Shown: positions 1 to 61,200 of the stretch, piece after piece
Layout: every line of letters starts with the position of its first letter
How positions within the stretch are numbered: the stretch's first letter is position 1
Assembly (NCBI RefSeq): GCF_008831285.2
Contig: NC_045141.1
Span: 18,224,848 to 18,288,847 of the forward strand
Direction: 5' to 3'
Source: Nymphaea colorata
Taxonomy: Eukaryota; Streptophyta; Magnoliopsida; Nymphaeales; Nymphaeaceae
Length of the DNA: 64,000 nucleotides
Translations under genes and position numbers: made by a program
Notes under the pieces: model-generated
The model's input: only the letters and a program-made list of their open reading frames with translations
What the model was told of the DNA's origin: nothing
Databases searched by the model: none

Positions 1-629
1 CTGTTCCAAAGAGTCAGTTTAGTTAAAAATGAGATCCGCAGTTTTTTTAAAAAAAAAGTAATTTAAGTATCTTTTCTTTCTACTCTTTACAAAAAAAAAA
101 TTTGAATAAAATTATCAATAGCTAGGAGGTAGGGGTATGAATACATAAAGCGGTCAATAATCAGACAATTCACATCGGATGGGTGGCCAATCAACTCCAT
201 CGTAACAGTAGCACGTGTCGTAAGAAACGTATGTCCTAAGCGCAGATATGAATCCCAATGAAAACAACCTTATAGTGAAGCTCCACCAACCTGCCTTCAA
301 AACAAAATCATGCCAAGCTTATCACCATCACATGGCTTCTTCTCTTTGGAGAAAGGAGTTTGGTCAATTATGGCAGCTAGGATGTTACAGTCCATGTTCC
401 TTGATGAGAAGATCAAAATATATATTTATATATATGGCCGCCCTAAAGATTTTTCTGTTTTTTTCTTTGCTTTCCGGCTGTCCATTTCTTCCAACTAATT
501 CTCAGTCTCAGATGAAAGGAATTGACATGCCCACATTCTTTTACATGTTTATGTGCGCCTATATATGGGTCTCTGCACCACCACCCATATGACTTGGGAA
601 GAGTCATACAGCCAAACTGTATATCCGCC
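1..629 (+). promoter_or_regulatory. Promoter and 5' leader of the CYP84A gene
   Basis: This stretch lies directly upstream of the P450 start codon. Three elements can be read. A G-box/ABRE core CACGTG is at 212-217. A perfect AC-II element ACCAACC is at 285-291, the site that lignin-pathway R2R3-MYB factors bind in phenylpropanoid promoters. A TATA-like TATATATG is at 560-567, about 65 bases before the ATG, so transcription probably starts near 590-595 and the leader is short. A second TA-rich run at 419-436 could also serve as a TATA box. Short open frames on both strands here are not supported as genes. The motifs are seen directly; their function is inferred from the gene they precede. Confidence 0.55.
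285..291 (+). promoter_or_regulatory. AC-II element (MYB site)
   Basis: The seven bases ACCAACC match the AC-II lignin cis-element exactly. They lie about 340 bases before the ATG of a syringyl-lignin P450, a plausible place and gene for such a site. A seven-base match can occur by chance, so the context carries most of the weight. Confidence 0.45.
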
Positions 630-3359
630 ATGGCCGCTGATCTTCTCATGCCTTTGGTCTTCCTGTCGTCCCTGGTCTTCCTCCTCCTCGGCTTCCTCAA
701 GAAGAAGAAGAGGCTGCCCCTTCCCCCTGGCCCCCCCACCTTGCCCCTCATAGGCCACATGCACATCATGGACCAACTCACTCACAGAGGATTGGCCAGG
801 CTCGCCAACAAGTACGGCGGCATCATGTACCTCAGGCTCGGGTTCATGCCGACGGTCGTCGTTTCGTCGCCGGACGCGGCGAAGGAGGTCCTCAAGGAGC
901 AGGACGGCGTCTTCTCCAACCGCCCCGCGACGCTCACCATCCGGTACCTGACCTACGGCCTCGCCGACATGGCCTTCGCCAACTACGGGCCGTTCTGGCG
1001 CCAGATGCGGAAGCTCTGCGTCATGAAGCTCTTCAGCCGGAAGCGAGCCGAGTCGTGGGCGTCGGTCCGGCACGAGATCGACGGCCTGATCCGGACACTG
1101 GCAGCCGGCGCCGGCACCACGGTCAACCTCGGCGAGCTCGTGTTCGCCCTCACCAGGAACATCACCTTCAAGGCCGCGTTCGGTTCCGACTTCGATGACG
1201 ACCAGAACGTGTTTCTCTCCATCCTCCAGGAGTTCTCGAAGCTGTTCGGGGCTTTCAACATCGGCGACTTCGTCCCCTGGCTGGACCGCTTCGACCTGCA
1301 GGGCCTGAACAAGAGGCTGGAGAAGGCCCGGGGCTCGCTGGACCGCTTCACTGACAGGATCATAGACGACCATATGGCGAAGGCGAAGGGCAAAGGTGAG
1401 GACGGCTCGGACATGGTGGACGAGCTCCTTGCCTTCCTCGGCGACCAGGCCTCGGCCGGAGCTGAAGACGTTCTCGACGAAAATTCCGCCGCTTTGAAGC
1501 TGACGAGGGAAAACGTCAAGGCAATCGTCATGGTGAAATTTCTTTCCTTTTCTTTTCTTTTTTTGGGAGTGCAAAAGATCTCGTTATATATCTATCTTCT
1601 TAAATAGAAAATTAATTGCGCTTCATATTTCTTTCATCCATCCCCACGAGATCTAACCATGCACGAATATTAACATGAAGAAGATTCAAGAAAAATGACA
1701 TCACGTCGACATCTTAACAGGTAAAAATATCTCAAACAAAATATTAACATTCCAATATGTTTATGTACATATATATAATTTAATATAGAAACTAGAACAT
1801 ATCTTAATTGAAGTCGGTTTTATGAAAAATGTTGATTCTTTTACTGTTAAAGAATTTGATGTTACAAGTGCATTTCGTTTCTTATTATATATTATGAAAA
1901 CATTGGTAAATTTCAAAAATGTTTGCCTTAATATACATTTCCCATCAAAAACATTCTTAACATAATATCTACAATGTTAGATTGCGTTGAAAGGTTTATG
2001 AGGTCACTCTCACATAGTGGTTTTGGGATATATCAAATTATTTTTTATAAACAACCAGATTTTACTAAAGTGCATGCATGGGTAATCTGCCTTAAGGCAC
2101 CCCTGAGTCATTGGTCTCAATTTTGTTTAAGGGTGCTGGAATCTAACCAAGTAAATGCAATTAATGCTATTGATTTGATTAGAGTCATAAATATAACGGG
2201 TGTGATTGATTCGACTAGAGTCAACCCATGCCCTCTCTTCTAGAATCTGACACGCATTCCAGAGTTTATAGCATTTCGAAAACTAACAGTGCTCATGAAA
2301 ATGCCAAAAAAATTTAGCGATTTAGTGAAAGCCACTAACCAGAACACCTTGGACGCGTTAGGATTCAAAAAAGGCCGTCCCCATAAGCTTTTATCGGCTT
2401 CAACCTCTAGTTTTTGCTTCAGTTGGTTCCATGGCTCGATACCAACTAGCTGCCTCTGATCTCTTTGATTCCGTTTATGGCGACAAAAAGTTCAGTTTGC
2501 TTGATCTTTATAAGAAAAAAACAGTGTTTGGATGCCAGAAGAAAATTCATTAGATAAAGTTGTCTGATTGATTCTTAGGACAAGGAAGCCAGATCATTAT
2601 AAAAAGGAAACCGTTTACTGGTTTCTGCTGTTATCTGATTATGATAACTCGATACAGTGATAGCAACTCTGAAAGAAACATTGTTTACGTTCATTAACTA
2701 CACGATCTGAATCCGAATCATTTACATTCCCAAATTCTTTGCCTCAGGACGTGATGTTCGGTGGGACGGAGACAGTCGCGTCGGCCATAGAATGGGTAAT
2801 GGCGGAACTAATGAACAACCCCAAGGAGATGGAGAAGGTGCAAGATGAGCTTAAGAGGGAAGTTGGTCTGGAGCGCCAAGTGGAGGAGAGCGACATCGAG
2901 AGGTTGGTCCATCTAAAGCGGGTGTTCAAGGAGACGCTGCGGCTGCACCCACCTATTCCCGTCCTCATGCACGAGACCGCCGAAGAAACGGAGCTCCTGG
3001 GGTACAGGGTGCCGGCGAGGTGCAGGGTGATGGTGAATGCCTATGCGATCGGCCGGAATCCGGAAGCCTGGCCTGATGCCAATAAGTTTATGCCGGACCG
3101 GTTTGCTTCCGAGGGCGCGCCCGACTTCAAGGGAAGCAATTTCGAGCTCATCCCCTTCGGCTCCGGCCGCCGGTCGTGTCCCGGGATGCAGCTAGGCTTG
3201 TATACACTGGAGCTGGCCGTGGCCCGAATGGTTCATTCCTTCACTTGGGCTCTGCCTGATGGGATGAAGGCCGGGGAGCTGGACATGAGCGACACGTCTG
3301 GCTTGACGGCGCCTAGAGCAAAGCAGCTGGAGGCTGTGCCAACGCCACGCCTGCTCTAG
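630..3359 (+). CDS. F5H: Ferulate/coniferaldehyde 5-hydroxylase, cytochrome P450 CYP84A
   Basis: Two exons, 630-1532 and 2748-3359, joined in phase 0 by a GT-AG intron, give a complete 504-residue protein. It is an ER-anchored P450 expected to 5-hydroxylate coniferaldehyde, coniferyl alcohol or ferulate, committing phenylpropanoids to syringyl lignin and sinapate esters. The ATG at 630 sits in a good context (CGCCATGG) and opens a hydrophobic anchor (about residues 4-19), a KKKKR stop-transfer and a proline-rich hinge LPLPPGPP. Further P450 marks: the I-helix GGTETVAS (306-313), ExxR as ETLR (363-366), PDRF near 417-420, and the heme loop FGSGRRSCPG with Cys445. The segments MDQLTHRGLA, FSNRPAT, FWRQMRK, FSRKRAESWASVR and ILQEFSKLFGAFN are hallmarks of CYP84 and exclude CYP75 or CYP98. 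Third codon positions are strongly GC-rich, unlike the other genes here. The 1.2-kb intron is AT-rich with no feature I recognise. AATAAA at 3529-3534 is a plausible poly(A) signal. Confidence 0.94.
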
Positions 3360-5871: not shown

Positions 5872-6690
5872 CATATGTAAAAGAGGAGAATGAGTAGAAA
5901 GCGTTTTTCTTTTTCCCAAAAATGAGGAATTTTTTTTTCCAACATCTACTCTGATTTATTTTTCCTCAAACGCACTAGTCAATAGCTTCTTTCCCACTGA
6001 CATTTTTCCTCAAACGCACTAGTCAATAGCTTCTTTCCCACTGACATATGTAAAAGAGGAGAATCAAGAGAAAGTGTGTTTCTTTTTTCCAAAAAATGAG
6101 GATATTTTTTCTCCAACACCTACCTTTGATTTATTTTTCCTCAAACACACTGGTCAATAGCTTCTTTGCCATTGCCATATGTAAAAGAGGAGAATGAGGA
6201 GAAAACGTGTTTCTTTTTTCCAAAAAATGAGGATATTTTTTCTCCAATGCCTACCTCTGATTTATTTTTCCTCAAACACACTGGTCAATAGCTTCTTTCT
6301 CACTACCATATGTAAAAGAGTAGAATGAGGAGAAAGCATGTTTCTTTTTTCTAAAAAATGATATTTTTTCCTTAACGCCTACCTCTGATTTATTTTTCCT
6401 CAAACACACTAGTCAATAGCTTCTTTCCCACTGCCATATGTAAAAGAAGAGAATGAAGAGAAAGCGTGTTTCTTTTTTCTAAAAAATGAGGATATTTTTT
6501 CTCCAACGCCTACCTTTGATTTATTTTTCCTCAAACACACTGGTCAATAGCTTCTTTCCCATTGCCATATGTAAAAGAGGAGAATGAGGAGAAAGAGTGT
6601 TTCTTTTTTGCAAAAGATGAGGATATTTTTTCCCCAATGCCTACCTCTGATTTATTTTTGCTCAAACACACCAGTCAATAGCTTCTTATA
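5872..6690. repeat. Minisatellite, about six copies of a ~131-bp unit
   Basis: A unit beginning CATATGTAAAAGAGGAGAATGAG recurs at 5872, 6045, 6176, 6307, 6435 and 6566. Spacings are 173, 131, 131, 128 and 131 bases. Each unit contains a GTGTTTCTTTTTTCC block, AAATGAGGATATTTTTT, GATTTATTTTTCCTC, and AAACACACTGGTCAATAGC. The first unit is longer because a 44-base piece (about 5964-6050) is itself duplicated. Units are well conserved, suggesting recent tandem expansion. No coding frame runs through the array. Confidence 0.85.
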
Positions 6691-19087: not shown

Positions 19088-22000
19088 ATGAAAGATCTCG
19101 GCAACATCTTCAGCGTTCTTAGCTTGGACGTTGGAGACGACAAGGATCAAACGGCCGTTGGCGCGCCTACGGATGCACGGAAGCAGTCAGGTCTGGTATC
19201 GGCTTCATTTATTACGTTCCCTTTTTTCATGATGGGTGTGATTAAACGGATATGGTATCGATCGTATCGAGAGTTCGTTTGGACTTCTCTCCGATTTCTT
19301 TGTTCCTTCTGCAAATGTTAGCGGACCCATACAGGGTTTTGGTAACTATAAAGCCAAGCAGACAACCAAGCGATCAGGTTTAGCTATTGTTGGGTACTGA
19401 ACTCAAATTTAAGTTACCTCATCAGGTGCACTCATGCATCTCTCTAGCTGCTTTCGTGCATGAGGCTTTTCTGTATCTAAGCTTGTTGGGCGCTTGTGCA
19501 ACACTGTTAATGCGTGAATTTATTATAGGCTGCTGCTGAAGCATCCGAGGAGAATGTCATGTGCCCAGCGGTTATGCATGTGAGGGCACCGTTTCTCAAA
19601 TTCGACCTCCAGCGTGTTTTTCTCCTTTTAGGCATTTCTGTGTAGGTTTTTCTATTATCTGGGAGATACATGTTTATCCTTCTCATCTTTTGTTCTATCT
19701 TAGTCAGCACGGCAACCGTCAGCCTGACAACCTCTTTTTGGTTCAATGCAATGGCTTTCTCATTAAAGAACCGGAAATTGTATAAGTTATCTATGGGTAG
19801 TAGGGCAACCAAAATTATTTAATGTGCTCCATGTCCTGGAACGATATAGTTGGCTATGTTCCTATTCGTTTATTTTCTCAAAAATAAGCAAATTATTAGT
19901 AGTAGCCATCATCTACCTGGGAAATTTATAAGATCGATATCTGTGTTGTAAATACAGCATCACCAATCCCATTTTTGGGAGCTCAACGTGTAGACTTTAG
20001 TACTATGTTTTTTAATACATGAACATACAAGTTTAATGGAGATCTTCCGAATTCCCTTTACCTTTTCAAGGAAAAAATTATGCTCCGTTTGATGTTTGGA
20101 TGTCATAATGGTAGTTTCTTTAAAGTTCATGATTGTGGATCAATATTACCTTGCTTGAAGGATCTATATGTTATTTTTTTGGTCAATTTAAAGATGCATA
20201 ACTGCATAGGCAATAAATTTCATTACCTGTACATGGATTTGAGTGGTCCTATGGTGCACATTGAACTGGTTTAGTCTTCATTCGACATGTGGTTCCCTAC
20301 TTTTTCGTGGCTCAACATGTACATATTCTTAGCTTGGTTAGTTTTTTTAGCATAATTTATTGGAATGATAATTGCTATGTGAATTCTGGTACAGGGAAGA
20401 AAAAACCAGTAAACGTGCAGATTTCTGAAGCAGATGAAGAATGCCCACCAGCGGAGGGATCTTCAGAAAGATTCAGGTCACCTCTTGTGTGGATTGACTT
20501 GGAAATGACTGGTAAGAGTTAAGTCCATTTCCAACTAACATAATAGCACTAAATGACGAATTGAGATGTGATCCGCCTTGTGTTTTACGCAACCTGCACT
20601 AGTAACCATATTTATGCCCCTGATACCTTAACACACTAACAAGAAAATGGATGGTTCTAAACTTCTAATGGTGTGTTTGATTGCTATGGTTTAGGAGACC
20701 GACTTGCTAAAAGATCCTCTTCTGCTAATTGTTGTTTTAACTTGACGTATTATGAATGGTTTATAAAAAGCTGCAAGCCATTGTCATGGAAAACTTTTTT
20801 TATTCGAAAAAAGCGAAAAAATGTTAAAAACAAGTTGGCCAAAAAATGGTAAAAAACACATCTTTTGAAAAAAAAACCCAAAACAAAACGAAGTGCGAAA
20901 AAGTGCTTTTATTCTTCTTTTTTTTTGCATTTCTTGAATTTTTTCACTTCATTACATTTTTTAGTGACCAAATTTTTATTTTCACATTTTATTTTAGTTT
21001 TTCTGACTTTTTAAAAATTTGCTGAGATTTTTCCGAAAAAGGTAACTTTGCCATTTTATACCTGAAAACGATATTTGTGACAATGCAGTGAGGTCACATT
21101 TACATGTGAAGTGTAAAAATTACTTTTCTAGATATCTGAATATTTATCTTCTCATGTCTTATTTTGTGGAAGGCTTTAGAAAATTAAAGGACTTGCCCTG
21201 GAAAAGGGATCACAAAGAGAATTTCAGAATAATTATATGAGAGTGAAAGTTTTTAACTATTTCAAATATTTTGTTGTGAATGCATGTTAAAATTTTATAA
21301 AAACAAGATTCTGAAAAAGAAGAATTTCCAGACATTTTTCTTGTGCATAGATATGAAAAATCATAAAAATACACTCAGATGCATTGGCATTACTGAATGA
21401 TGTTTAATAAATTGAAGAAAATAACTTGCTGAAGGTAATAGAGCATTCTTAATGAAATATAACTACAGACTTGAAAACAACAAAAGTCGCAAACAAACTT
21501 TTTTACCATAAACCAACTAGTTCTCAGCCCTGGAACATACAGTCGTACACCCATGAGAGTGTGATAGTGTGGTATTTGGATTCAAAGCATTCCAGCGAAA
21601 TCTTGATTGGGGCCAAGCTTTTGATGCAGTTCACTGGAGATTCTTGCTGTTCTGCTTTCCATAGATGGACTTGTGATTCGTGTTGATGGAATGGTTAAAT
21701 TCTTCCTTGTGTTCTTTTTGTATTGCTCTTGCTACTAATCTACGAATTTCTGTACCAGAATGTTTTCAAAGCATTGGTATTATGACGGGCAGACACAATT
21801 TTTAGTTCAACATACTAATGGAGGGGTGTAGTGCCTTAATAAGGATGGCATTCATGGATGGACAACACTTGCAGGGGTTGAACAAGTTATGCGCTTGCAA
21901 TTTGGAGAGAACACTAAGTGGAGATGAAACTCCACATGGATCTGGTGGTTTGATATGCTATGGCGCTATGCCTGGACAAAAGACAAAAAGTGACCCTAAG

Positions 22001-25000
22001 GAGAGTGGAGTGCATGACAACTGTCATTTAGAATGGTCAATGGATAATAGAAGGGCTCCTAAGAAATTTCTTATGGAACTATAACAGTGAAGAGAAAGAA
22101 ACCTATTTATGGATCAAATGGTATTGCCGACCAAATTGGTGGCTTGAGCAGTAGAGTAATAAAGTATGTTAGTGAGGCACTTCTAGTCAAGTTGTTATGG
22201 GCAATGTTGTCTTAGCTATGATAGATACCATAACTAGATGATGATTGAAATTGTACTCAAGGAGCTAGTTTTGGAATGTAATCTGCCTGCTTCAGGGAAA
22301 ATCCACAAACACTCTCTTGTATTTTATGTTGTGGTGTGTTGCCATGGTGTATATCTTTAATGACACTTCAAGTGCCAAAACTTTTTGGCCCTGAATGAAT
22401 ATCATATATTTAAGGAAAAGTTGCTGGTTGTTTCCAGGTTAAACAAGGGGTGCATTTGTTTTTGCTTTGGTGCATATTTCCTCCTTTACATTTCAAAAAA
22501 ACTTGAAGCGCTTCTGTGGCTATTTAGTAGTTACTGTAATTTGTAAAGATATCTGGTAACTGTTGTCTGGTCAAGTAGTGGGGCTAGGTCAAGTTGTTAA
22601 TCTTTTAATTTCTGGAAAAAGTCCATGCTATTTATAACTTATATTCTACTTCATTGTGAAATTGCTTTTTAATTTTATAGTTGCTATGATTTTTTTTGTG
22701 TATTGTTTTCTTTAGATTCTTCTTATTTTTATAGTTATTTTTGTAAAAAACTGATTTTTCATTTTTCTACGATCACAATTTTGATAAACGTTGTTCATTT
22801 TGTATTATTAAACGAACATTATTAAAGTTAAAGAAAATATGACTAACTTAATAATTGTTCATCATCAAATCACTCTTAAGATCATACCTATAACTAAGGT
22901 TAGGTTACAAAAAAAGAACACATTAATAATTACTTTTAGTGGGTTTGGTTTTTGTCTCTTACCAAACTGGTCTCGTATTTACATTCTCTCTCTATATATA
23001 TACATCTCTCTTTCTCTCTCTCAACATGTATATTTATTTTCTGGATTCCTGAGAAAAACAAACTTTCATCTTATATCTAGGCAAAACCTCAATGATAGAC
23101 AAACCTAATAATGACATTTGTGAGAATCATTACCATCCCGGACAGTTATTTCTATAGGCTTGGACATAAAGTTTCAAAAGCGGCATTTTGTCATAATTTA
23201 GATTTTTTTTTTTGTTCCACCTTTTAAATAAATTATCATTTGGATCACCAAAAATGCCATTCACATCCACTCGTACCAGTAAAATATGCAAATTATAAAG
23301 CAAATAACATGTTAAATGTTAGCCATCAGTTATATGTGTGTTACCTAGTTGAAGGCCCTTATGGCTCCTAACTTCCCATGTCCAACCAACGGACACAAAA
23401 GAGAGCAACTTAATGATATTCTTGACAAAAATTGACTGAAGCTTCCTTTTTTTGTTCGGGAAATATTGTAAAGAACATTCTGTTTCATGATTCCAGTTTT
23501 CATCCATACATTTATTCAATCAGTTTCTAACATTGCATCCTAGCATGTATGTTGGGAAAACGCTAGAAAGCAACTACCTTTTTTTGCCGCTTCATGTGGA
23601 GTTTATTTTACATCAACAAGGCTATTTCATTCTTGTACCATTTACATTTTGGGATTTAATGTGGTGTGTACTTGCTGTTCAGTATAGAAAATTTAAGTGA
23701 AAAATTATTTCACAAAAATTAAACTGTGGCCTAACATGATTTAACCAAAAAATTTGACCAAGTGAGGTGAAACACAGAGTTACCTATATCAGTCAAGAGT
23801 AAAATAACACAAGAATGATTACATATGGTGCAACTGAAATCAAAACTTCTTATAAAATTTTGTTAAAAGATCAAAATAGTTATTAAAATATTAAAGTAAA
23901 ACAGCTTAAAATATAATAGAAGTGTTTTTCAAATCTCACAAAGATCTTGCAATATGATGGCAGTATTTGCAAAATATCATGATAAAATCCTTTTTTCTGG
24001 CAGTAACATCATGATATTTCTAGAAATATCACTGATACTTTCGAAAATGATGGTAACTATACCGTGCCAATTTATAGCTGTCTGATAGTTGAGACCCTTG
24101 CTTCATTTTGTATGTCATGTTTAGTATATTGGTCGGGGCATTTTGAAGTTGATTGAACTTCGATTCTTCTTTTCTTTTCAGTGAAGTATAATCTTCTTGC
24201 TACTTTTCATAGGTTTGAATATTGATGTTGATAGGATTTTGGAGATTGCATGCATTATAACAGATGGGAAATTAACTCATTTGGCTGAGGTAACTTTATT
24301 TCCTTCTTTACTTCTCTCAAATTATAAGAGGAATAAAAAAATCTGTACTGTATATTTCAGATTGTGCTCTATTATTGTTATTATCATTATATATTTATAC
24401 TAAATTTTATATTTTTATGCATGAATTTTGTAATAGTAGCCAGTTATGTCTAATTCAAATACTAGCTTCCAATTTCTAACTTACTTTAGAATTTCGGATC
24501 AGAAAATACATATATATATATATATATATAAATAAAGCCCTAACAACTGCAAGCCTAAAAAGCATGGGCAAGGCTCATATACTACCCTCTCCCTTGAAAC
24601 AGCTGTTGGGCAGTATATATTATGGTTATCTAACCAACCTGTATCCCTTATCCACTTAGTGGAGTTAATCATGTATAATCCATTCAGTGGTGCTTTTAGG
24701 TAGGATCTGGTAGACAATGCTGACCTGATTGTATCATATTTTTATAGAGTTCGGTAGTATATGTGAAGATAAGTGAGCTCATTTCAAGATAGCGTACATG
24801 TCTAGACACAAAAAGATACAGAGGATTCATGAACAATTCTGTTGGCTGTTTGATTAATATGATCAAATTGTTTATATTCTATTAGTAAAGCAATTTTTTC
24901 GAAAGGTAAATGACAAGCATCTTTCTAAGCTGACAGCCTTTGTAATCATCTCAGTTAATAAGTAGAAGACAGTTGACGCCAGCTCGTGTTTCGGGTACTC

Positions 25001-28000
25001 TTTATATAGAACTACTTTTAGCTCCTAGACTGTTTATCCTAGACAGATCCAGATCCTAAAAGATTATTACTATGTACCTATCTTATAAATCTCTTTGAAC
25101 ATCTTGTATTCTAGATACATCCAGACACCATAAAAAAGGCATGCTTGATCATTTTTTTGATGTAATGCAAAAGTTAATAGATGTGGTCATTATGAATTGC
25201 TTGTTATGAACCATTCTTTGGTTCAGATAATCGTATAATGAAACATGGGTTTCGAACATGAACTTTTTTGGTGTTAAATGAACTGTTGATTCTAGTTTGC
25301 TCATTAAGGGCCCTATGCTTGTAAATTTACATATATGTCATATTTTCTCTGCTAAATCAATTACTAGATCATATCTACAAGGTCATTTAAGTAAAAGAAA
25401 GGCATCCAGAACAATATTCAGAAGTTATATTTGGATGTATCTTGGATATGTAGTTTCTCTATCACATTCTCTCCCTCCCTCTCTCTCTCTCTCTCTTTAT
25501 ATAAATACATATGCATGTGTGCATAGTGTCATAAGGACAGTTATTTAAATCTGGGGTCCATAGTTGTCATGATGAGGGACACGAGCAGATATGGTGTACA
25601 AGAGAGTAAGGAGACATTTTACTGATACAGGTGTTGACCAATCAGGATGCAGTTAACCTTGGCCTTGTATTATGGTTTAAAAGCCAACTTTTTTACATTG
25701 AAAAATAAAGAACAAATTGATAAAAAAGGCACATGCTCTTAACATTTTTATCTTTTCCCCTAACTTGGAGAGACTGTGCACAGCATCCTCTCTGTCTTCA
25801 TCAATCTCATCACTCTCTCTCTGTCATATGCCCCCTCCCCCCAACGCGCACAGAGGAACTTACAGTTTATCTCTTTTAACTGAACATCCACTCCCTTTCT
25901 CCTCTTTCAAGTTTCAACCTACGCTTAGTTTGAGTTCATTGAGAACATGAACTTTTGAAAATATGCTTTATAATAAAATAATAGAGTATGTATATACACA
26001 CAAAAAAGCCATATATGATATATGTTGAAGAGACATTCATATTGATTTTAAATCTCTTCTGAAAGTCATAGTGCTCTCTATGGTCACACTCTTGTACTTT
26101 ATGACAAATAATGACAAATAATTATTATTATCTGTATATTTATATGTACTATATACATGCAGACACAACAATGCAAACATATCTTGAATGATCAAGTATT
26201 TTCTTTTCAAATTTGTAGTGTTCCCTATGTGCACACTCTTGTTTATTTGTGACACATACATGCATGTTTGTAAAAGTATGTATGGACACATGTTTGCTAC
26301 GCATGCGTCTCTAGCATTTGCATTTGTTTCCAACAATTTTCTGCAAGTCTTCATTTTCTAAGTACTTAATGTCTAAGCTTTGTACCTTTGAGCAGTGGAA
26401 AAGTGTATTTTTTGCAAGTGCACCAGATCAAACTTGGCTTGCATGGCTTGGGTTTGTTTTATGTGTTTGGACTTTGGGTTGGCTTCACTTGCCACAAGAA
26501 CGGCTGCATGTTGATCATCCTTTGTTCATTTCATTCGACCTTCTTAATATCCCTGCTTTTAACTAATTGCTCGGCTCGACGGCTCCTAAGTTCTGTACTT
26601 ATGTTTACATCAATCTAATTATATGTTTGTGTGCATCTTGTGGATTTTGTTTATTTTAAGTTAAAGTGCATCTATTTTTTCCTTTTCAGGGTCCAGACTT
26701 GATAATCCACCAGTCAAAGGAATGCCTTGATAACATGGGAGAGTGGTGTCAGAACCATCATTCTGCAAGTGGTATGCCTTGGCTTGATCTCAGCTAATAT
26801 ATATGGACTCTGTTTGGGGCTGCACACAATAGTCCAGCTGAGCTATGTTCGAGCTTGGCTTCAGTCCTAAATGCCTTGGGCCTTGGCAGAAGCTTGGCTT
26901 CACGGAGCTGAACATTTCTCAAGCTCGGGTTGATCTTGGCTTGACTGAGCCTGAGATAAGCTGGTTTTGAGAAAAAATTGAATTTTTTGGCGACAGATGT
27001 ACTAAGACAGCATCGATATAGGATTTTGAAGCCGAAACTCCTTCCATGAAGGGAGAGGGAAGGCACCAAATTTTCACAAGAAATTATCTATTTATAATCT
27101 TAAAGAGACTATTTGAGCTTAGACGAGCTTTTACAGGGAACTTGAGATTGAAACATTAAATATTTGAGCTTATTTTATTGGCACCTGACTCTTTTGTCAT
27201 ATAAATCTTGTTCAAGCCAAGCTTAATCGGCTCAAGCCTGAGTTGAGTTCAAATTCGTTGCCCACCCCTGAGATCTGCTTAATGGTCCTGTTTTCAATAT
27301 TTATGTAACACATGAGATACATGACCTGTTTGTTTACCTGATATATGTTAGTTATGTGTTACTGGGTTTCTAGGGTTGACAGAGAAGGTGCTCGCCAGCA
27401 CTGTTACTGAAGCAGATGCTGAGACACAGGTTAGTTCTTTGATTTCTAACCATGAAGAGATTAATTAAAAAATTTATTTTTGCTACTGATGTGGTACACA
27501 GATATTTGAAGATCTTTAGTTTCTGCTCTTATAGCATTCCTTTTGTCTACTCAGATTGAGAAAAGAATTCTCATGCTATTTGGCATCTGATAATTTGCTA
27601 ATACTGTAAATATGTATTGAGATTTTTTAGTTTAATGATTTCATTGGTTCATAATCTAGTACCATGTACAGTATAGCCGAAGCAAGCAGAGAATGTGCTC
27701 TCTAAGTGAAAGATGAAAAACGAAACATGCTAAAAAATATTGGTTATTTCTTCTTTTGTATTTACTTTGTATGTCTTACCTTCTCAATGACATTCACTTT
27801 GAACTTATAGTAAGTGGATTCTGTAGGTGATAGATTTTCTTAAAAGTCATATTGGAGGCAGTTATCAGCCAATGTTGGCTGGCAATTCCATTTACGTTGA
27901 CTTCGAATTTCTCAAGGTAAAATTATTTCTATGTTTTCATTTTTTCTTTTTGCACCTTATCAAGTTTAGAGATCCGGTATCAAAGTTTGTGTGAGATGGT

Positions 28001-31000
28001 CAACTGATGGTATCAACTTTGTCTATTTTCTGTTAATTATGGGGATGAATCTACAACTAGTGTTAGGTTTTCTTTTAAGATCTATTACGTTGGTCACCTA
28101 GTAACAAGGCACATTCAGTCATACTTAAAATGTAAAAAATTTAGAAACATGAGTAGCAATGTAAATAAAAATTAGACAAGCTTTACAAAACACAGTAAAG
28201 GGAAAATAAGCAACTTTTGGACTTTTTGAGCATATGCACATGCAATTGTAAATCATGCAAGTTGTAATAAACTTACACTGTTCAAGTTATGACTAATTAA
28301 TTGACAAGCAACCGGGCACTAATTAAACACAAGCCTGTGTGCATATTTGTGTTTACTTGTGCATCTAGATCATGACTTCACATCAGATAACATAAAAAAA
28401 ATTGACATGAAGATAAAATGTGAAGACAAAAGTAAAAGCGAAACATAATTTCTGAATATCTAACTCTACACTAGTTGTCAAACTATTACTCTAAATGGTA
28501 AATTGTATAAGCTGGAAACCAAATTGAGGAGATAATTAGCTTATAAATCCTAAGACATTCATTAGCTACTTGTTTTAATTGTTTTGTCACAAACAATAGA
28601 GCTTTCTCTGGCTAGGGGGTGTGAGATGGGTGGTGAAGGTTATGACAATGGTGTTAATGGGCGAGGATTGCTGGCAGTGCTCAATGTCACTACAATCATC
28701 TTCATTTCTATAGATGGATTTGTCTACTGGAAGAAGTATTTTTATACCAAGGGAATTAGGGAATGCTCTCTATATGATATGGAATAACTGGAGTTCAGGT
28801 CTCTTATGTAAACCCATGGCTCTTGTTTTTGTAAGTTCTGAAGCATGTGGCATATCCACCATGATGACGTCTATGATGCATAAATAGAGAGCATGGCATC
28901 TAGAGGCAAAATTGCACTTGAACTTATACATACCTTAGGGAATAAGTTTATGACAAAGATACATCTTACCATATGCTTAATGCTTATTTGAAGATGGTTC
29001 ACACTTTGCACTGTCACAAACGACCATTATTTCTACCTGCCATTGACAAATATAAACAGAAAACATAGAAGAGTTATGTAATTTGGTCTTAGAAATAGTT
29101 ATCAACTTCTACGATTTGGACTTAAGGTTTAGAGGCCAAAAGAAAAGAGCGGAAAAGATACTAAATTGGATCTTTGATAGCTCACTGTTGCAAAAAATCC
29201 TAGCTTTTTTGGGTTGATGTGGTTTCATAAAGAAGAATGTAGAAAGCAAGAGACACAGTTTGAGATAAAAGAAGATAAAGTCGTAAAAAACTCATGAGGA
29301 GTATAACATTGGCCATACCCTAAAATAAAAAAAATACACAAAGTTCTCTTTCGAAGTTAAAAAAAAAAATCTACCTGTAATGTTTTGATAGTATCAGCTT
29401 ATTTGAGTTAACATCTGTTGAACCACATTTGTCCATATTTTTTTCATTCATTTCATCATTGTATGGTAACTAGTAACTATTGTCTGATTTCATATTATTG
29501 ATTGTTGATGGTGTTCCAAGTATGATTTCAACATCTGCATGATCTCATTGTGCATGTTTTTTCAGAAATATATGCTTGATTTGGCTTCTATTTTCTCTCA
29601 TGTGCTTGTCAAGTATGACTTTAACATCTGCATGATCTCATCGTGCATGTTCTTTCAGAAATACATGCCTGATTTGGCTGCTATGTTCTCTCACGTGCTT
29701 GTTGATGTTAGCAGCGTGAATGCATTGTGCTTTCGTTGGTATCCTAAAGGTACAAACCTCCATACTCTCTTTATGACAACGGTTACTCTTTTCTAACATT
29801 GATATTAGCACCTGTTATACATTAAATTTGAAGCTGTCAATCCTTGTTATATGTTAAACGTGGTGGTTGAATAACTTTCTCTTGATAAGCTTCATGTGGG
29901 ACAGTTGCAAATTTTTCGCATCCTTGGGATATGATCATATGAAACAAAACCGTCTAATGCTCTTTACATATTATGCAGTAATTGGTTAAATGACTCTTAA
30001 ACTGCTATAAACAGACAGTGTGAGCCATTTGTCAGCAACTTTTTGGTAGTATTCCTTATCTTTGGGGTTTCCCTCCTACCGCTTTTATTGCCGCTAATCG
30101 TGCCATGCAATTATTTTTCCCTTTTTTTGGAGTAGGAAAACACGATTTTATAACAAACAATACAAACAGCATTATATCCTATCCAACCAAAAAAGGAACT
30201 TATGAAATGACGCATCTATGTTTGAAGATGTTTCATTGAGGGGATTTAATCTGCCAAGAAGTGCTCCATCGACCTGTCTAAGAAGTTGGACTTCAGGCTG
30301 GAATGTTGGTCTCTATGTGGCTGTTTCTGGAGGGAGTATTTTAAAGTACCAAAGACATAATTGAAGAGTTTGAGATGCTTTAACTTTTCTCCATATGCAG
30401 TTCAATATCATCAGCTTAGAGGGACCTGGAGAATTTAACCTTTCCGCAATCACTACAATTTTCTTGTGGTGGAAATCCATAATTTCTCTATAGAGAGCGA
30501 GAGAGAGAGATGATAATCCTCAATCAGTGAGCAGGGCAAATAATTTTTAGTTATTTGTTTTCTTTCTTAAGTTTATTGAGGGATATGTGATTACCTGCTG
30601 GCTGTTCAAAGAATTGCATTGCTGTTGATGTTTTCTTCATCTTATGTATTTAAATCTGTTTTGCCATTGCCTTTATTTCTAGTGATTGGATCTGCTGCGT
30701 TCATACTTTATAACCTTAATTTTTTTATATCAGTTGCCTTTGTCTGTATGATTTATTATTTCGATGTAACTACCATCATTGCTACCTAAAGTAACATGGG
30801 GTTGACGTATATCTATTGATGCGTTCCACCGTTATTATTACTGCCATGAAAGTATTTGCCTATAGTTATAAATCTCTTTCCTTTCTGAATCTATGAATAT
30901 GATTTTGTTCAGAAAGTTGTGTGCAAGACTCCGTCGTTCCTATGGATTGAGTTTTATTTACGTCAATGACCAAGTCTTGCTTCTCATTTTTCTTCAATGT

Positions 31001-31161
31001 TAATTGATTGCATGACAAATTGTTTTTGTTCTGTTTGTTTCTCAGAGTATCGGAAGGCACCTAGAAAGCAAAAGAAGCATAGGGCCATGGACGACATAAA
31101 GGAAAGCATAATGGAACTGAGATACTTTAAACAGAATATTTTTAAAGGATCTAAGAAGTGA
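19088..31161 (+). CDS. Oligoribonuclease, DEDDh 3'-5' exoribonuclease
   Basis: Eight exons give a 243-residue protein: 19088-19190, 20395-20511, 24213-24289, 26690-26771, 27374-27429, 27827-27916, 29659-29749 and 31046-31161 (TGA). Every junction is GT-AG and phases agree throughout. Oligoribonucleases degrade 2-5-nt RNA remnants to mononucleotides; the plant enzymes of this family are linked to organellar nano-RNA turnover. All five active-site residues are visible: Asp69 and Glu71 in WIDLEMTG, Asp170 in GNSIYVDF, and His217 and Asp222 in HRAMDDIKES. Family blocks also include VDRILEIACIITDG, the CLDNMGEWC segment, SGLTEKVL and KYMPDLAAMFSHVLVDVSSV. The ATG at 19088 is the first in frame after an upstream stop. 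The acidic 60-residue N-terminal extension is longer than in bacterial Orn and lacks a clear transit peptide. Intron 6 ends in a tandem duplication of the exon-7 acceptor (separate entry). Introns total about 11 kb, are AT-rich, and hold no recognisable second gene. Confidence 0.95.
29518..29703 (+). repeat. 93-bp tandem duplication of the exon-7 acceptor and 5' half of exon 7
   Basis: Unit 1 (29518-29610) and unit 2 (29611-29703) align without gaps, differing at about 10 of 93 positions. Each carries a pyrimidine tract ending in TTTCAG followed by 45 bases of exon 7. Unit 2 is the copy used in the model because it continues into the rest of the exon. Unit 1 encodes KYMLDLASIFSHVLV, a diverged echo of KYMPDLAAMFSHVLV. 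The unit length is divisible by three and no stop occurs between the two acceptors, so use of the upstream acceptor (after 29565) would add 31 residues in frame. Confidence 0.92.
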
Positions 31162-34100
31162 CAGTACTTACTACCATACTGTTCCTTTTGTCTTAGTTAT
31201 TCTTACAAATGGCTAATATCGCAACTACTAATGATGCTGTGATTATGTCGACTACTAAATGATGCTATCAGCAATCATTGTCAAAGTTGATGATTAATGC
31301 TCTCTGTTTCAGTTTGGTTGTGTCTAGAGGTTTGGCTTTTATTTACCTCGAATCTACATGTTGGCTTTTATTATCTTTACATGGATAGATATTAAATCTT
31401 TGTAATCCACACAACCGCTGTGCCAGGAGACCTCCGCCGGTTTTTTTTTACATAAAAAATGTCTCTTCCGTGTACACTCAGTACGCTGACTTTCAAGCTA
31501 TATCGTGTAGCTACTCACATTGCATGGTTCAATATGAACAGACTATGATCCTAATGTGCATACACACTTGCGCGTGCACACTCAGTGCCGACAGTTGTTT
31601 AGCTTGCTGAGCTGTCCGGCTTCATACAGGTGGAAAAATATTAGTCGGTGGGCAGCTTATTATTTGTTCAAACTTCATAGTTCATATAGTCATATAGTCA
31701 CTTGGAGGTTTAAGCAGGATTGCAAATACTGGAGAGCATGATACACTAGTTGATGGGCATATTGTTTCTTGTCTAAGCCCCAAAGAGCATGATAATCTAG
31801 TTGATGGGTGTATGGTTTCTTGTCTAAGCCCCAAAGCATCTTTGGGTCTGGGAACCAAGGAGAAGGAGAAGAAGCCTTGGCTTCTTGTGCCAATTGGTTC
31901 TTGGAGGGTTAAACAGGCCATTATCCCAAAGTTGTATGTCATCAGGAAGTGATTGCAGATATGACAGTTTAAACTCAGTTTGCTAGAACCTTAGAAGTCC
32001 ATCTATAAACTTACGAGATTTATCGGCATGCTTGGCACATAGTCAAGCTTAATTCCTTCTCAAAATCACTCTCCAATATTTTAAACACTAATTTCATTTT
32101 ATTGTGAAGAAGAGAATTACTGGACTGCATGACATGGGGAAGAAAATGTGATTCCACAATCTTGAAAGAAATCTAGTCTCTCCCTCCACCAGCTTATTTT
32201 GTAAAAGTTCACCAAGCTCCAAGCCACCCGTATGAATGATTGTTTACATTGGTAAAAAGCAAAACGATGCACTTTCTACTGGAGGGTGGGCGATGGGTCC
32301 GAGCAGCCCAACCTGAGCAGCCGAACTGACCAAAGGTTGGTTCATTTTCAAAGCCTTACAGACCCAGTATATATGGGTTCAGGCTGGTGGGGTTCAACTT
32401 CCTTGGTTTGCAATGTTGGGACAGGGTGCTTTGTTTGCCACTAATGGCCGGGAAACTGAAGACACCTTTGAGACGATCACTTGGGGGGACCATTTCATGA
32501 GACGATCTTATATACACTCTGCCTTTTTCAGCATTCATTTTGAGTTTTTAAATCTAAAGAAAGAATTCCTTTCTTAAAAGAAAAAGAAATGAAAATGAAA
32601 GCCTTCAAGGCGACTCAATGGGTTGCCTCTTTGAAAGGACAAAGCCACAGCCACTCAAATAATTTTGTTAAGATTCTTTTTCTCATTCTCAATGGCCAAT
32701 ATTCTTGAAATTCTTGTCGCAGCAAACTATTGGAGTCTAACCAATGGCTTGGTTTGATTGGCGAAGAAATTTTTCTTGAATCAAGCTAAGCCAAATTGAA
32801 ACAAAGCAAAATTCAGTTTTTTTGTTTTCGAGAACCTGAAGCTTGGCAGATTCAAACTTGGTTATTCGATGTAGGTGTCCAAGTTATATCAATGTAATAT
32901 GATGGTCCCGTGGCAAGCAACTTTGAACTGGTTCTACTTTGCTGCTCAAGAAAGTGCAACTATGCGAGATTGGCCTCAGATGAAATGCATGGTGAAAGAG
33001 AAAGTTGTCTGTGGAGAGTCTGATCACAACTGTGGTTGGTTTAATTTCTCTCTCGCCCAACATCTAGGATTTCGACACTTCACCCCGTTGAGCAGAACCA
33101 AGAGCGAGGAAGTAATATGCCATCGAGTTTTGTTGAATTGCATCAGATTGATAGTTACAGATTACGAGTTGCAGTTAACATCAACGAATTAAAAATAGAA
33201 GTGAACAAGCCAAAGTGCAAGCATGAACATGGAAGACAACAAAGAAAAATGAGACGTTGGGTCAACCCACATTTGAAAGATGGTAGGGTCAAAAAAGACG
33301 TTGGATGATCCTTGCCTCTCAGCACTTTGACCCAAAGAGGAAAGCTGAAGCTAAAAGTAACTGCTTTCAAGAAGAGGATGTAGGTGAACATGAAGAGCAT
33401 CGTGAGGATGAGAGAGAGACAAGGACGATGATGCTAAGTCAGTGAAGACAACAGTTCACGAGAAAAGTAGTTCCCTTGCAGCCTCATATTACTTCATTCA
33501 CGATTCGACCAAGACAAATGCTCTCCAACCCAGAGGGGATCGAGGATGCCGCTATATGCGGAGGAAGCTGCTCCTCAAAGAAACAGAGGAAACACAAGAA
33601 AGCAGGAAGCAACATTGAAGATTTTTTGATCTAATCAGGCTTGATTCATATTTCATGTCCTTCGAATCATTGTTTAGTTTGAAAATTCTATCGTATGCAT
33701 TATATCTCAATGTCATTTTTGGAACAAGAGAAACTTTGTTTCTCCATCATTATCCTTTCAAGTTTCAAGTGGAAGAAATGCTCTCAACGTAATACACCTA
33801 AAAGACAGGAACAGTACCTCGTTTAACACGACTGGCTTCTTAACTAGCGGCACGAAACTGTAGTAGTAAATGGTAGGTTCTTATCTAAAAAAAAATAACG
33901 CCGTATCATAAAAATAAAATAGATAAACTCTTTTAAAATTACGGCCATGGGGTTTTTGGAACGAATACGTCTTTGTAGTGTCCAAGTTTGGTGAACTCTA
34001 ATCAAATAAATCTCACGAAAATAATATTATGCGAAAGCTCAAGCAAAGAAAGACAGGACTGGCACTTAATTCAAGGTTTTCAATATGTGATCCTTTTCTT

Positions 34101-58288: not shown

Positions 58289-61200
58289 ATGGTGTTCCTG
58301 TTCTGGAATCGACCGTCGCCTCATCAACAGTCCGCCTGCCTCAAGCAGTGAGTACTCAGTCTCTACTCTCTCTCTCTCTTTTCCTTGCTTGAGCCTCGCT
58401 TGCTTCTTTGTTGTCCTCAGGGCGGGAGACTTTAACTACGACTCAAAATATCGTTGCTTGACTTCTTCCCCTTCGGATTGCAACCCAAATTCAGCGTCAT
58501 CTTCGCCGCCACTACCGTCTTCATCTTTGTCTGAGCTCCGACATGGCTCCAACCGCGATGGTTTCGTCGTTAACCGCGCCCGCGTCCTTCTTGGCTCCGG
58601 ACTCCAGACATACCAACAAGGAAAGCGAGCTCTTCAAGCTTGGAAGTATAGCAAACCACCACATTCCCTGCCTTGTTTCCTCCCTTTCTTCTTTCTCCTT
58701 TTGGGTCTATTTGTGGTGGCCATGAACTAAGGAGTTGGTGGTGGTGGTGCTGGTTAAGCAGGCACTTCGGCTTGGATTGGGCGTTTGTGGATCCCAGCAG
58801 TCCCGTCGAGGTTGGGGAGAGGTTCTGCGTGTGCGTGAAAGAGCTTGTCCCTTGGGCTGTTCTGCCTCTTCAGATCGTCTACGTTAACGACCATGATGCT
58901 GTCAAAGATGGTTCCCTTAAAAGGGGTTTGACGGCCTCCTTCGCTTTCGGGAGCGGAACCCTTCGAGGCCATTTATTGGTACTTGGATATTTTGCATTTG
59001 TCTTCTCCTTCTTTTGTTTCTAGCTAAATTCCTCCAATGTTCACGCCCACTCTCTTTGCATCTCGTTGTAGATACAACAATAATATAACATAGCAGAATC
59101 GTCGATAAGTAGAACGCATTTTCTCATTATGTGTTCGCAGTAATGAAAGTTTAGCAGGAAAGTTGTGATAATAGGAGCTGATCCTTTTGATTTTTATATT
59201 TCCGATGAAAGAAGTTTTTTGAATTTTATTTTCTCTGGAGATTTAGTTAAATGATTCGCCTAAAACGGTTTTGAAGCTTTGAACTTTGAGAAGACTTGCG
59301 TTTACTAAGTCGGATGGCAGCCATGGAGAAAATAAAAACTAGGAACTGATATGTCTCTATGAAAGCTATTTTGGTCTTCATCGCATGAACTTGAACTTCA
59401 CGCCAAATAGATCCACAGAGTAGTGTAAATCATTCATGGTTGATCAAATTTATTGAACACTATGAAATGAACACTTGTTCTCATGAATTCATTTCTTTAT
59501 TAGAACCTTCATGTGAAGTTCACATGGCACCACATGGAGCTTCATTAGTTGCACATCACGCTTCACTGTATAGGACATTTTCATTACACATTTGAATTGT
59601 GTTAGAGAACTGGCTTTTAGCTTGAGAACTAATCCGAGAACATGTAGTAGAGTGAAAGAATCTGCTTAAAGGAACTAGCAGGTTGTTTTCGGACCTGGGC
59701 TGGGTCAGCTTTGAGTACCTCTGCCGCTGCTTGAACAAAGCCAGGTTTGCAAGAGGGAATCGGGTAGGTGATTGTTTTGACCTCCATGATCTGCCAGCGG
59801 TTGGACCTGTTTGGCGACAGGGAGCAGGTTCCAGTTCATAGAGTCCCTCCATCAGCATGGTCACGTGGCAAAGAAGCATTCGAATTAAATTTTAAGGGAT
59901 AAAGGAATAAGAATTGTCTCCTTGCCACAATTTCTATTCCAAGTAATTGGCTTTCAAATGTTTAAGGATTGAAGAATTATACTCCTTTTAAACATGTGGG
60001 AGAATCACATTCCTCATAAGTACCTATGCGGCTGACAACTTTTGTTCAGAATAGATATTTATGTTGAATTTTTTGGGTAATAAATTGTATTTGTGCATTC
60101 TTAAATATGGTTTTGAACCATACCTAATTGGGAAGTCATGCGAAGGTAGATTAAAGCAAGTTATTTACGCCGCTACAATATTGATACTTCTAGATGAATG
60201 TTATTACAAACCTAAATTAATGCAACATGTCACCAGGTTTCTTTAAAGGTTATCAATGAGAGTCTCCGAAGGGCAGAAATAGGTCATGTCATGTGTTTGT
60301 CCCTTTCGTTATACTTGGTTGTCTCTAGAAACATGTTCCCTATATTTCATCACCAGATTGCCTTAGACTATTAGCCAGGGCTTGGATGGTACTGTAGTTG
60401 TCATTTGCACTTTTCTTGAATAGCTATCCGACAGAAACAGAAAATAGACGAATGTGTTCATAAACCAGCTGACTTATATCCCACTTTCAACCTGTGTGTG
60501 GGCATTAACCGATTCATGTTGTGGATTTGGTTGAGTTTCCAGATAGGTGTGCTGATTGTTGGCAGCATGAAGAAACCAATTTTCGAGATAGTGTCATATT
60601 GTTCTTCAAGTTGATGACCTAGCCCATGGTAGAGTTACAGCCAAAATGCTTTCCTGCTGAGATATATTGGAATCAAGTCCACCCCAGTTCTGTTTTCTTT
60701 ATAGGAACTCAAGCCGCCATTTAACTGCAAGACATGATTAAGTTACTGATGAATAACTAATTTTACCATTCTTCTTTAAGCCTAGTCCAGTGCTATGGGA
60801 ATTGGTGAAGTATATTTCTTCAGTAAAGGAAAGTAATGTATGGTAGATATATCATTGTTCTTGTTTTTGAGATCTACAATCAAATCTAGATTTAAAAGTT
60901 AGTGAAGTTGATCCATGACTCGATTCACTCGAATTGAGCATGACTCAGAGCCATAATGAGGAGATGCATTGTGTCAAGGGCTGGTCTGTTGGTTCAGGAA
61001 CATAGAGAGCTAGCTTATAATCCATCAAAATCTTAGCCTGAATCCTACTATACCATGGTTTAGCCAGGTCTCAACTCTCAACGTTAGAATCATGTGTCCA
61101 TCTAGACTGCACCTGTGAATCGTTTGGATCAGAGGAAACTTTTAGTTATTGGGGACTGAGAAATTATGTTATGTTTGTAGTGTTTCTTCGTTTAGTTTTG

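Follow-up and report, generated by a model that had tools for sequence, protein, structure and literature searches.

Duplicated alternative 3' splice sites form a general class in which two in-frame acceptors compete within one intron. The locus described here, at the end of intron 6 of an oligoribonuclease gene of Nymphaea colorata, has the same arrangement of two in-frame acceptors, of which the upstream one is a candidate site. Schiml et al. are said to have derived small tandem duplications from break repair in 2016. Such duplications are thought to come from breaks with overhangs that are repaired by end joining, in plants too, according to the excerpted text of PMC8355091. The break-repair duplications of plants and animals described in that excerpt resemble the present one in being head-to-tail and two-copy with units of tens of bases, whereas the present one takes in a splice acceptor together with half of its exon, and its origin is one that we infer. 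Another related system is the group of tandem-duplication introns and splice variants of Drosophila (PMC2891723, in the portion consulted). They are alike in the duplicated splice signals, in one copy having turned into intron, and in a multiple-of-three length that allows both forms. In the Drosophila case (same portion of PMC2891723), the duplicated piece was coding sequence that includes an AG/GY proto-splice site, and a new intron was gained, while here an existing acceptor was duplicated, no intron was gained, and intron 6 was lengthened. A literature search at listing level for a duplicated acceptor with part of an exon found no description of such a case.

The oligoribonuclease gene and its phosphate-cap segment

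The window, meaning the whole stretch of 64,000 nucleotides that was analyzed (C4:18224848-18288847), contains an intact plant oligoribonuclease gene on the forward strand. Its eight exons have GT donors and AG acceptors, and they encode 243 amino acids within 19088-31161. The exons are located at 19088-19190 (coding part of exon 1), 20395-20511 (exon 2, with the catalytic residues Asp69 and Glu71), 24213-24289 (exon 3), 26690-26771 (exon 4), 27374-27429 (exon 5), 27827-27916 (exon 6, with the catalytic Asp170 and Lys175 as the last residue), 29659-29749 (canonical exon 7, from Lys176, with Ser186-His187-Val188 and Ser193), and 31046-31161 (exon 8 to the stop codon, with the catalytic His217 and Asp222). 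All five DEDDh residues, mapped using the residues named in the excerpted text of PMC6613908, are present, and with its match to the Pfam RNase_T profile the protein belongs to the oligoribonuclease family. In a search of PDB, 24 distinct solved sequences were matched, the best match being human REXO2 (3.3e-57; 6sty, 6j7y and others), and 91 of 184 REXO2 residues are identical in the canonical protein. Other features in the window are a cytochrome P450 gene at 516-3356, consisting of two exons' worth of open reading frames (Pfam PF00067 on 516-1604 and 2673-3356) and presumably resembling ferulate 5-hydroxylase, and an open reading frame at 58652-59020 matching DUF1990 (PF09348, E 4.4e-07).

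Human REXO2 shares with this protein the DEDDh residues, the Leu wedge, the Trp, Ser166, and Ser193. It differs at codons 186-188 of the canonical protein (29689-29697), where Ser186-His187-Val188 stands in place of His-Tyr-Arg, of which the Tyr and Arg are phosphate-cap residues. To our knowledge, the Arabidopsis protein is likewise without the His-Tyr-Arg triplet. Among the best 80 of 563 prokaryotic relatives, in an alignment of all 80 loci, His is found in 77, Tyr in 80, and Arg in 78, and human REXO2 also has His-Tyr-Arg. The 5'-phosphate cap, which in OrnVc consists of Ser108, Tyr129, Arg130, and Ser135, is therefore only partly kept, with Tyr129 replaced by His187 and Arg130 by Val188. 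According to the excerpted text of PMC6613908, Tyr129 and Arg130 of OrnVc help to bind the 5' phosphate of the substrate, the change of Arg130 to Ala abolished activity, and the cap Tyr and Arg are described as strict among Orn homologs. Ser186 was first considered a replacement of the catalytic histidine, which proved wrong; the catalytic histidine is His217 in exon 8, and residues 186-188 belong to the phosphate-cap region.

The searches of the own genome covered 407,766,735 bases in 783 contigs. DNA searches with the repeat and with the exon 6-8 interval matched no place besides this locus. The protein search gave 11 matches, of which eight are this gene exon by exon and three are weaker matches on contigs C248 and C250. 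These matches (L105, L106, and L112) amount to two divergent oligoribonuclease-like stretches, with in-frame stops and no intron in the matched part, which are presumably either contaminants or pseudogenes. The His-Tyr-Arg triplet is kept in these stretches, as "LHYR" in L105 and L106. A plasmid search with L105 gave no match. A second plant copy making a normal protein was rejected, as the DNA matches are only at this locus and the C248/C250 stretches are divergent and intronless with stops. A search of viral contigs for oligoribonuclease relatives yielded nine pattern-matching stretches, none of them a relative. A literature search by the locus name At2g26970, a presumed plant oligoribonuclease gene, found nothing. 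Mitochondrial oligoribonucleases have been shown in yeast and humans only, according to the excerpted text of one paper.

The tandem repeat and its splice signals

A 93-bp duplication at the border of intron 6 and exon 7 is confirmed. The upstream unit (29517-29609) consists of 49 bases of the intron 3' end and a decayed copy of the 44 bases that open exon 7, and the downstream unit (29610-29702) consists of 49 bases of the intron 3' end and the 44 bases with which the real exon 7 begins, both on the forward strand. In each unit, the 44 exon bases are preceded by CAG, a pyrimidine tract, and a branch-like CTCAT. The units are adjacent, ungapped, and head-to-tail, as a tandem duplication is defined, with 84 of 93 positions identical (90.3%) in the best register and a Tandem Repeats Finder score of 309. 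The first-pass annotation had described two ungapped 93-bp units about 89% identical; the ungapped pair stands, while its register lay one base late and gives 83/93 (89.2%). The identity at offset 93 drops to the background level on either side of the array, and both edges are clean. No bases are shared at the repeat junction beyond the units and no microhomology remains, although the 10% divergence could mask one or two bases. The nine differing sites are spread across the 93 bp. A chance repeat of dinucleotide scale is ruled out by the 84/93 identity.

Exon 6 ends in phase 0 at Lys175, so that exon 7 can start at 29659, after the AG of the downstream canonical acceptor (29657-29658), or in frame at 29566, after the AG of the upstream candidate acceptor (29564-29565), with 31 additional residues. 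Use of the upstream site would keep the frame, as the unit length of 93 is divisible by three and, by chance, no stop lies in the spacer. The two acceptors, the donor after 27916, and the Lys175/Lys176 border had all been placed correctly, as sequence comparison and the gene model indicate, and the unit and frame check bore out the stop-free 31-residue insert after Lys175. The earlier statement that the insert lies next to the active site agrees with the positions along the sequence, where the insert would begin 5 residues past the catalytic Asp170, with the 5'-phosphate-cap segment following it. Pfam RNase_T (PF00929) matches the canonical protein in one stretch with 114.4 bits, and the protein with the insert in two split stretches with 107.1 bits.

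For both acceptors, CTCAT is at -22 and 45 nt without AG precede the site. The 20 nt before CAG include 12 T for the upstream acceptor and 10 for the downstream one, and 8 to 15 for the gene's six remaining acceptors. A YAG after at least 9 T in 20 nt is also found at seven other places in intron 6. Two in-frame AGs, each with a pyrimidine tract and a branch-like site, thus have the sequence features of competing 3' splice sites. Both sites look complete and about equal in strength, so the upstream one cannot be called silent from its bases, and it looks usable. Its survival says little, because at about 5% change per copy the few critical bases would in most cases be left intact. Splicing probably stays with the downstream site, because this site alone adjoins the full exon 7.

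A weak donor-like site, CAA/gtatga, lies at the repeat junction with its GT at 29613-29614. Together with the upstream acceptor it would bound a 47-base frameshifting exon and leave only a 46-base intron. The locus is not a case of intron gain by tandem duplication: the donor is still at 27916, the acceptor is pre-existing, and the junction site leaves a gap of 46 nt. Plant introns are usually longer, and an intron of this length is probably too short.

Decay of the upstream copy and genomic background

The exon halves of the two units differ at 5 of 44 positions (3 replacement, 2 silent) and the intron halves at 4 of 49 (Fisher p 0.73). The replacements, Pro to Leu, Ala to Ser, and Met to Ile, are those listed in the first-pass annotation, which had counted three silent changes; the third is the repeat junction. 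There, GTC versus GTT in the final Val codon is not a true silent difference, since the second unit already begins with the C at 29610. The sole polarisable change between the units is that of Pro179 to Leu on the upstream copy; Pro is found at this position in 74 of the best 80 of 563 prokaryotic relatives, counted in the same alignment of 80 loci, and in human REXO2. The upstream exon half has a GC content of 0.318 and a T content of 0.50, compared with 0.432 and 0.386 in the downstream copy; in this gene, the exon mean GC is 0.436 and the introns have a GC of 0.30-0.40. At eight of the nine differing sites, the upstream copy has T (two-sided binomial p 0.039).

The dN/dS between the copies is 0.22 (15 codons, junction codon counted silent; Fisher p 0.11), which leans to constraint. 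Selection on the downstream copy should by itself bring the value below 1, and therefore it does not separate the hypotheses. The overall picture of the upstream exon copy appears to be one of drift and intron-like decay. The divergence between the units is 0.104 at all sites and 0.086 in the intron half. At plant substitution rates between 1.5e-9 and 1.5e-8 per site and year, such a divergence would correspond to a duplication age of about 3 to 35 million years.

The background was sampled from twenty 10-kb stretches at fixed positions on C1-C4 of the same genome, with 199,900 known bases. They contain 20 arrays with a unit of at least 30 bp and at most 3.5 copies, six of them with a unit of at least 60 bp, which scales to roughly 40,000 and 12,000 arrays in the genome, respectively. 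The 64-kb window alone gave seven array rows with a unit of at least 30 bp and at most 3.5 copies. Two further arrays were observed in the window: a two-copy tandem duplication of 51 bp with 90% matches at 31733-31836, about 570 bases 3' of the oligoribonuclease stop, and an array at 6002-6687 in which a 131-bp unit is present in about five copies. Under random placement, 264 to 441 duplications of at least 60 bp over an acceptor are expected, about 34 to 57 of them in frame and open, as an order-of-magnitude estimate that ignores selection and uses 31,580 genes (PMC7015852, excerpted text) with 3 to 5 introns assumed for each. A duplication across an acceptor is thus to be expected.

Within the introns of the oligoribonuclease gene, 4,244 of 11,006 frames of 48 nt are open (0.386), and multiplication by 1/3 for length gives about 0.13. 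In the 48 nt before the seven native acceptors, the relevant frame is open in one, which is the acceptor in question, and across the three frames in 6 of 21; from these counts, the chance of an in-frame open spacer may be lower, nearer 0.05-0.1. Such a spacer is not very improbable.

Competing explanations and their meaning

The most probable explanation, to which we assign a probability of about 0.78, is a neutral one: a break-repair duplication with a working downstream acceptor and an upstream unit that now drifts as intron, with possible splicing noise. One tandem duplication, most likely from DNA break repair, would have copied 93 bp including the branch region, the pyrimidine tract, the AG, and 44 exon bases. 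The downstream copy, attached to the remainder of exon 7, would have gone on serving as acceptor and coding sequence, and the upstream copy would have been absorbed into intron 6 and then drifted. Occasional use of the upstream acceptor may yield an in-frame protein with 31 more residues, as splicing noise. The first-pass annotation had left the choice between a minor isoform and a cryptic acceptor that is neutral. The latter fits better, as such duplications are common, the open spacer is not very improbable, and the decay is intron-like; a minor isoform is the less likely option. Nothing about the repeat demands a function, and it looks ordinary in kind.

A functional alternative isoform, in which regulated use of the upstream acceptor would place a duplicated 31-residue helix between Lys175 and Lys176 and alter the dimer or the substrate pocket, is unlikely. 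The open frame, the multiple-of-three unit, the intact acceptor with its branch-like site, and the point estimate of dN/dS are consistent with it, but the upstream exon half is no better conserved than the intron half, has lost the conserved Pro, and is intron-like in composition. The insert also reduces the RNase_T score and is not seen in five alignments shown among the 24 matched solved relatives. It is quite unlikely that the duplicated helix, between Asp170 and the altered cap segment, makes a regulated second form of the only plant-type oligoribonuclease found in the genome, with a changed substrate length preference or dimerisation. The same insert would be borne by the enzyme normally if the upstream acceptor were now the main one. 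This acceptor has the slightly T-richer tract and is encountered first from the donor, yet an insert splitting Asp170 from the rest of the domain in a well-conserved family, together with the drift in the upstream exon copy, makes this very unlikely.

The junction site could make the upstream copy a poison exon, if the upstream acceptor and the donor at 29612 were used together and the 47-nt frameshifting exon lowered expression through nonsense-mediated decay. Of the eight positions of the donor consensus, the site matches five, as do three native donors of the gene, and translation would then stop early. As 18 of the 99 GTs in intron 6 match equally well and the 46-nt intron between the units is below the usual plant length, this is highly improbable. 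An assembly or sequencing artefact is hardly credible: the duplication is known from one assembly only, but the units differ at nine scattered sites, the edges are clean, and arrays of this type occur commonly throughout the assembly.

The locus illustrates cleanly, and in a datable form, the in-frame duplication of a whole 3' splice site, which is raw material for alternative isoforms. The probable outcome at this locus is the quiet decay of the extra copy; if the upstream site is truly used, a new enzyme isoform would have arisen in a single step. Bacterial and human oligoribonucleases have a strict dinucleotide preference. The change in the phosphate cap may matter more than the repeat, as it makes the dinucleotide preference of the plant enzyme a testable question.
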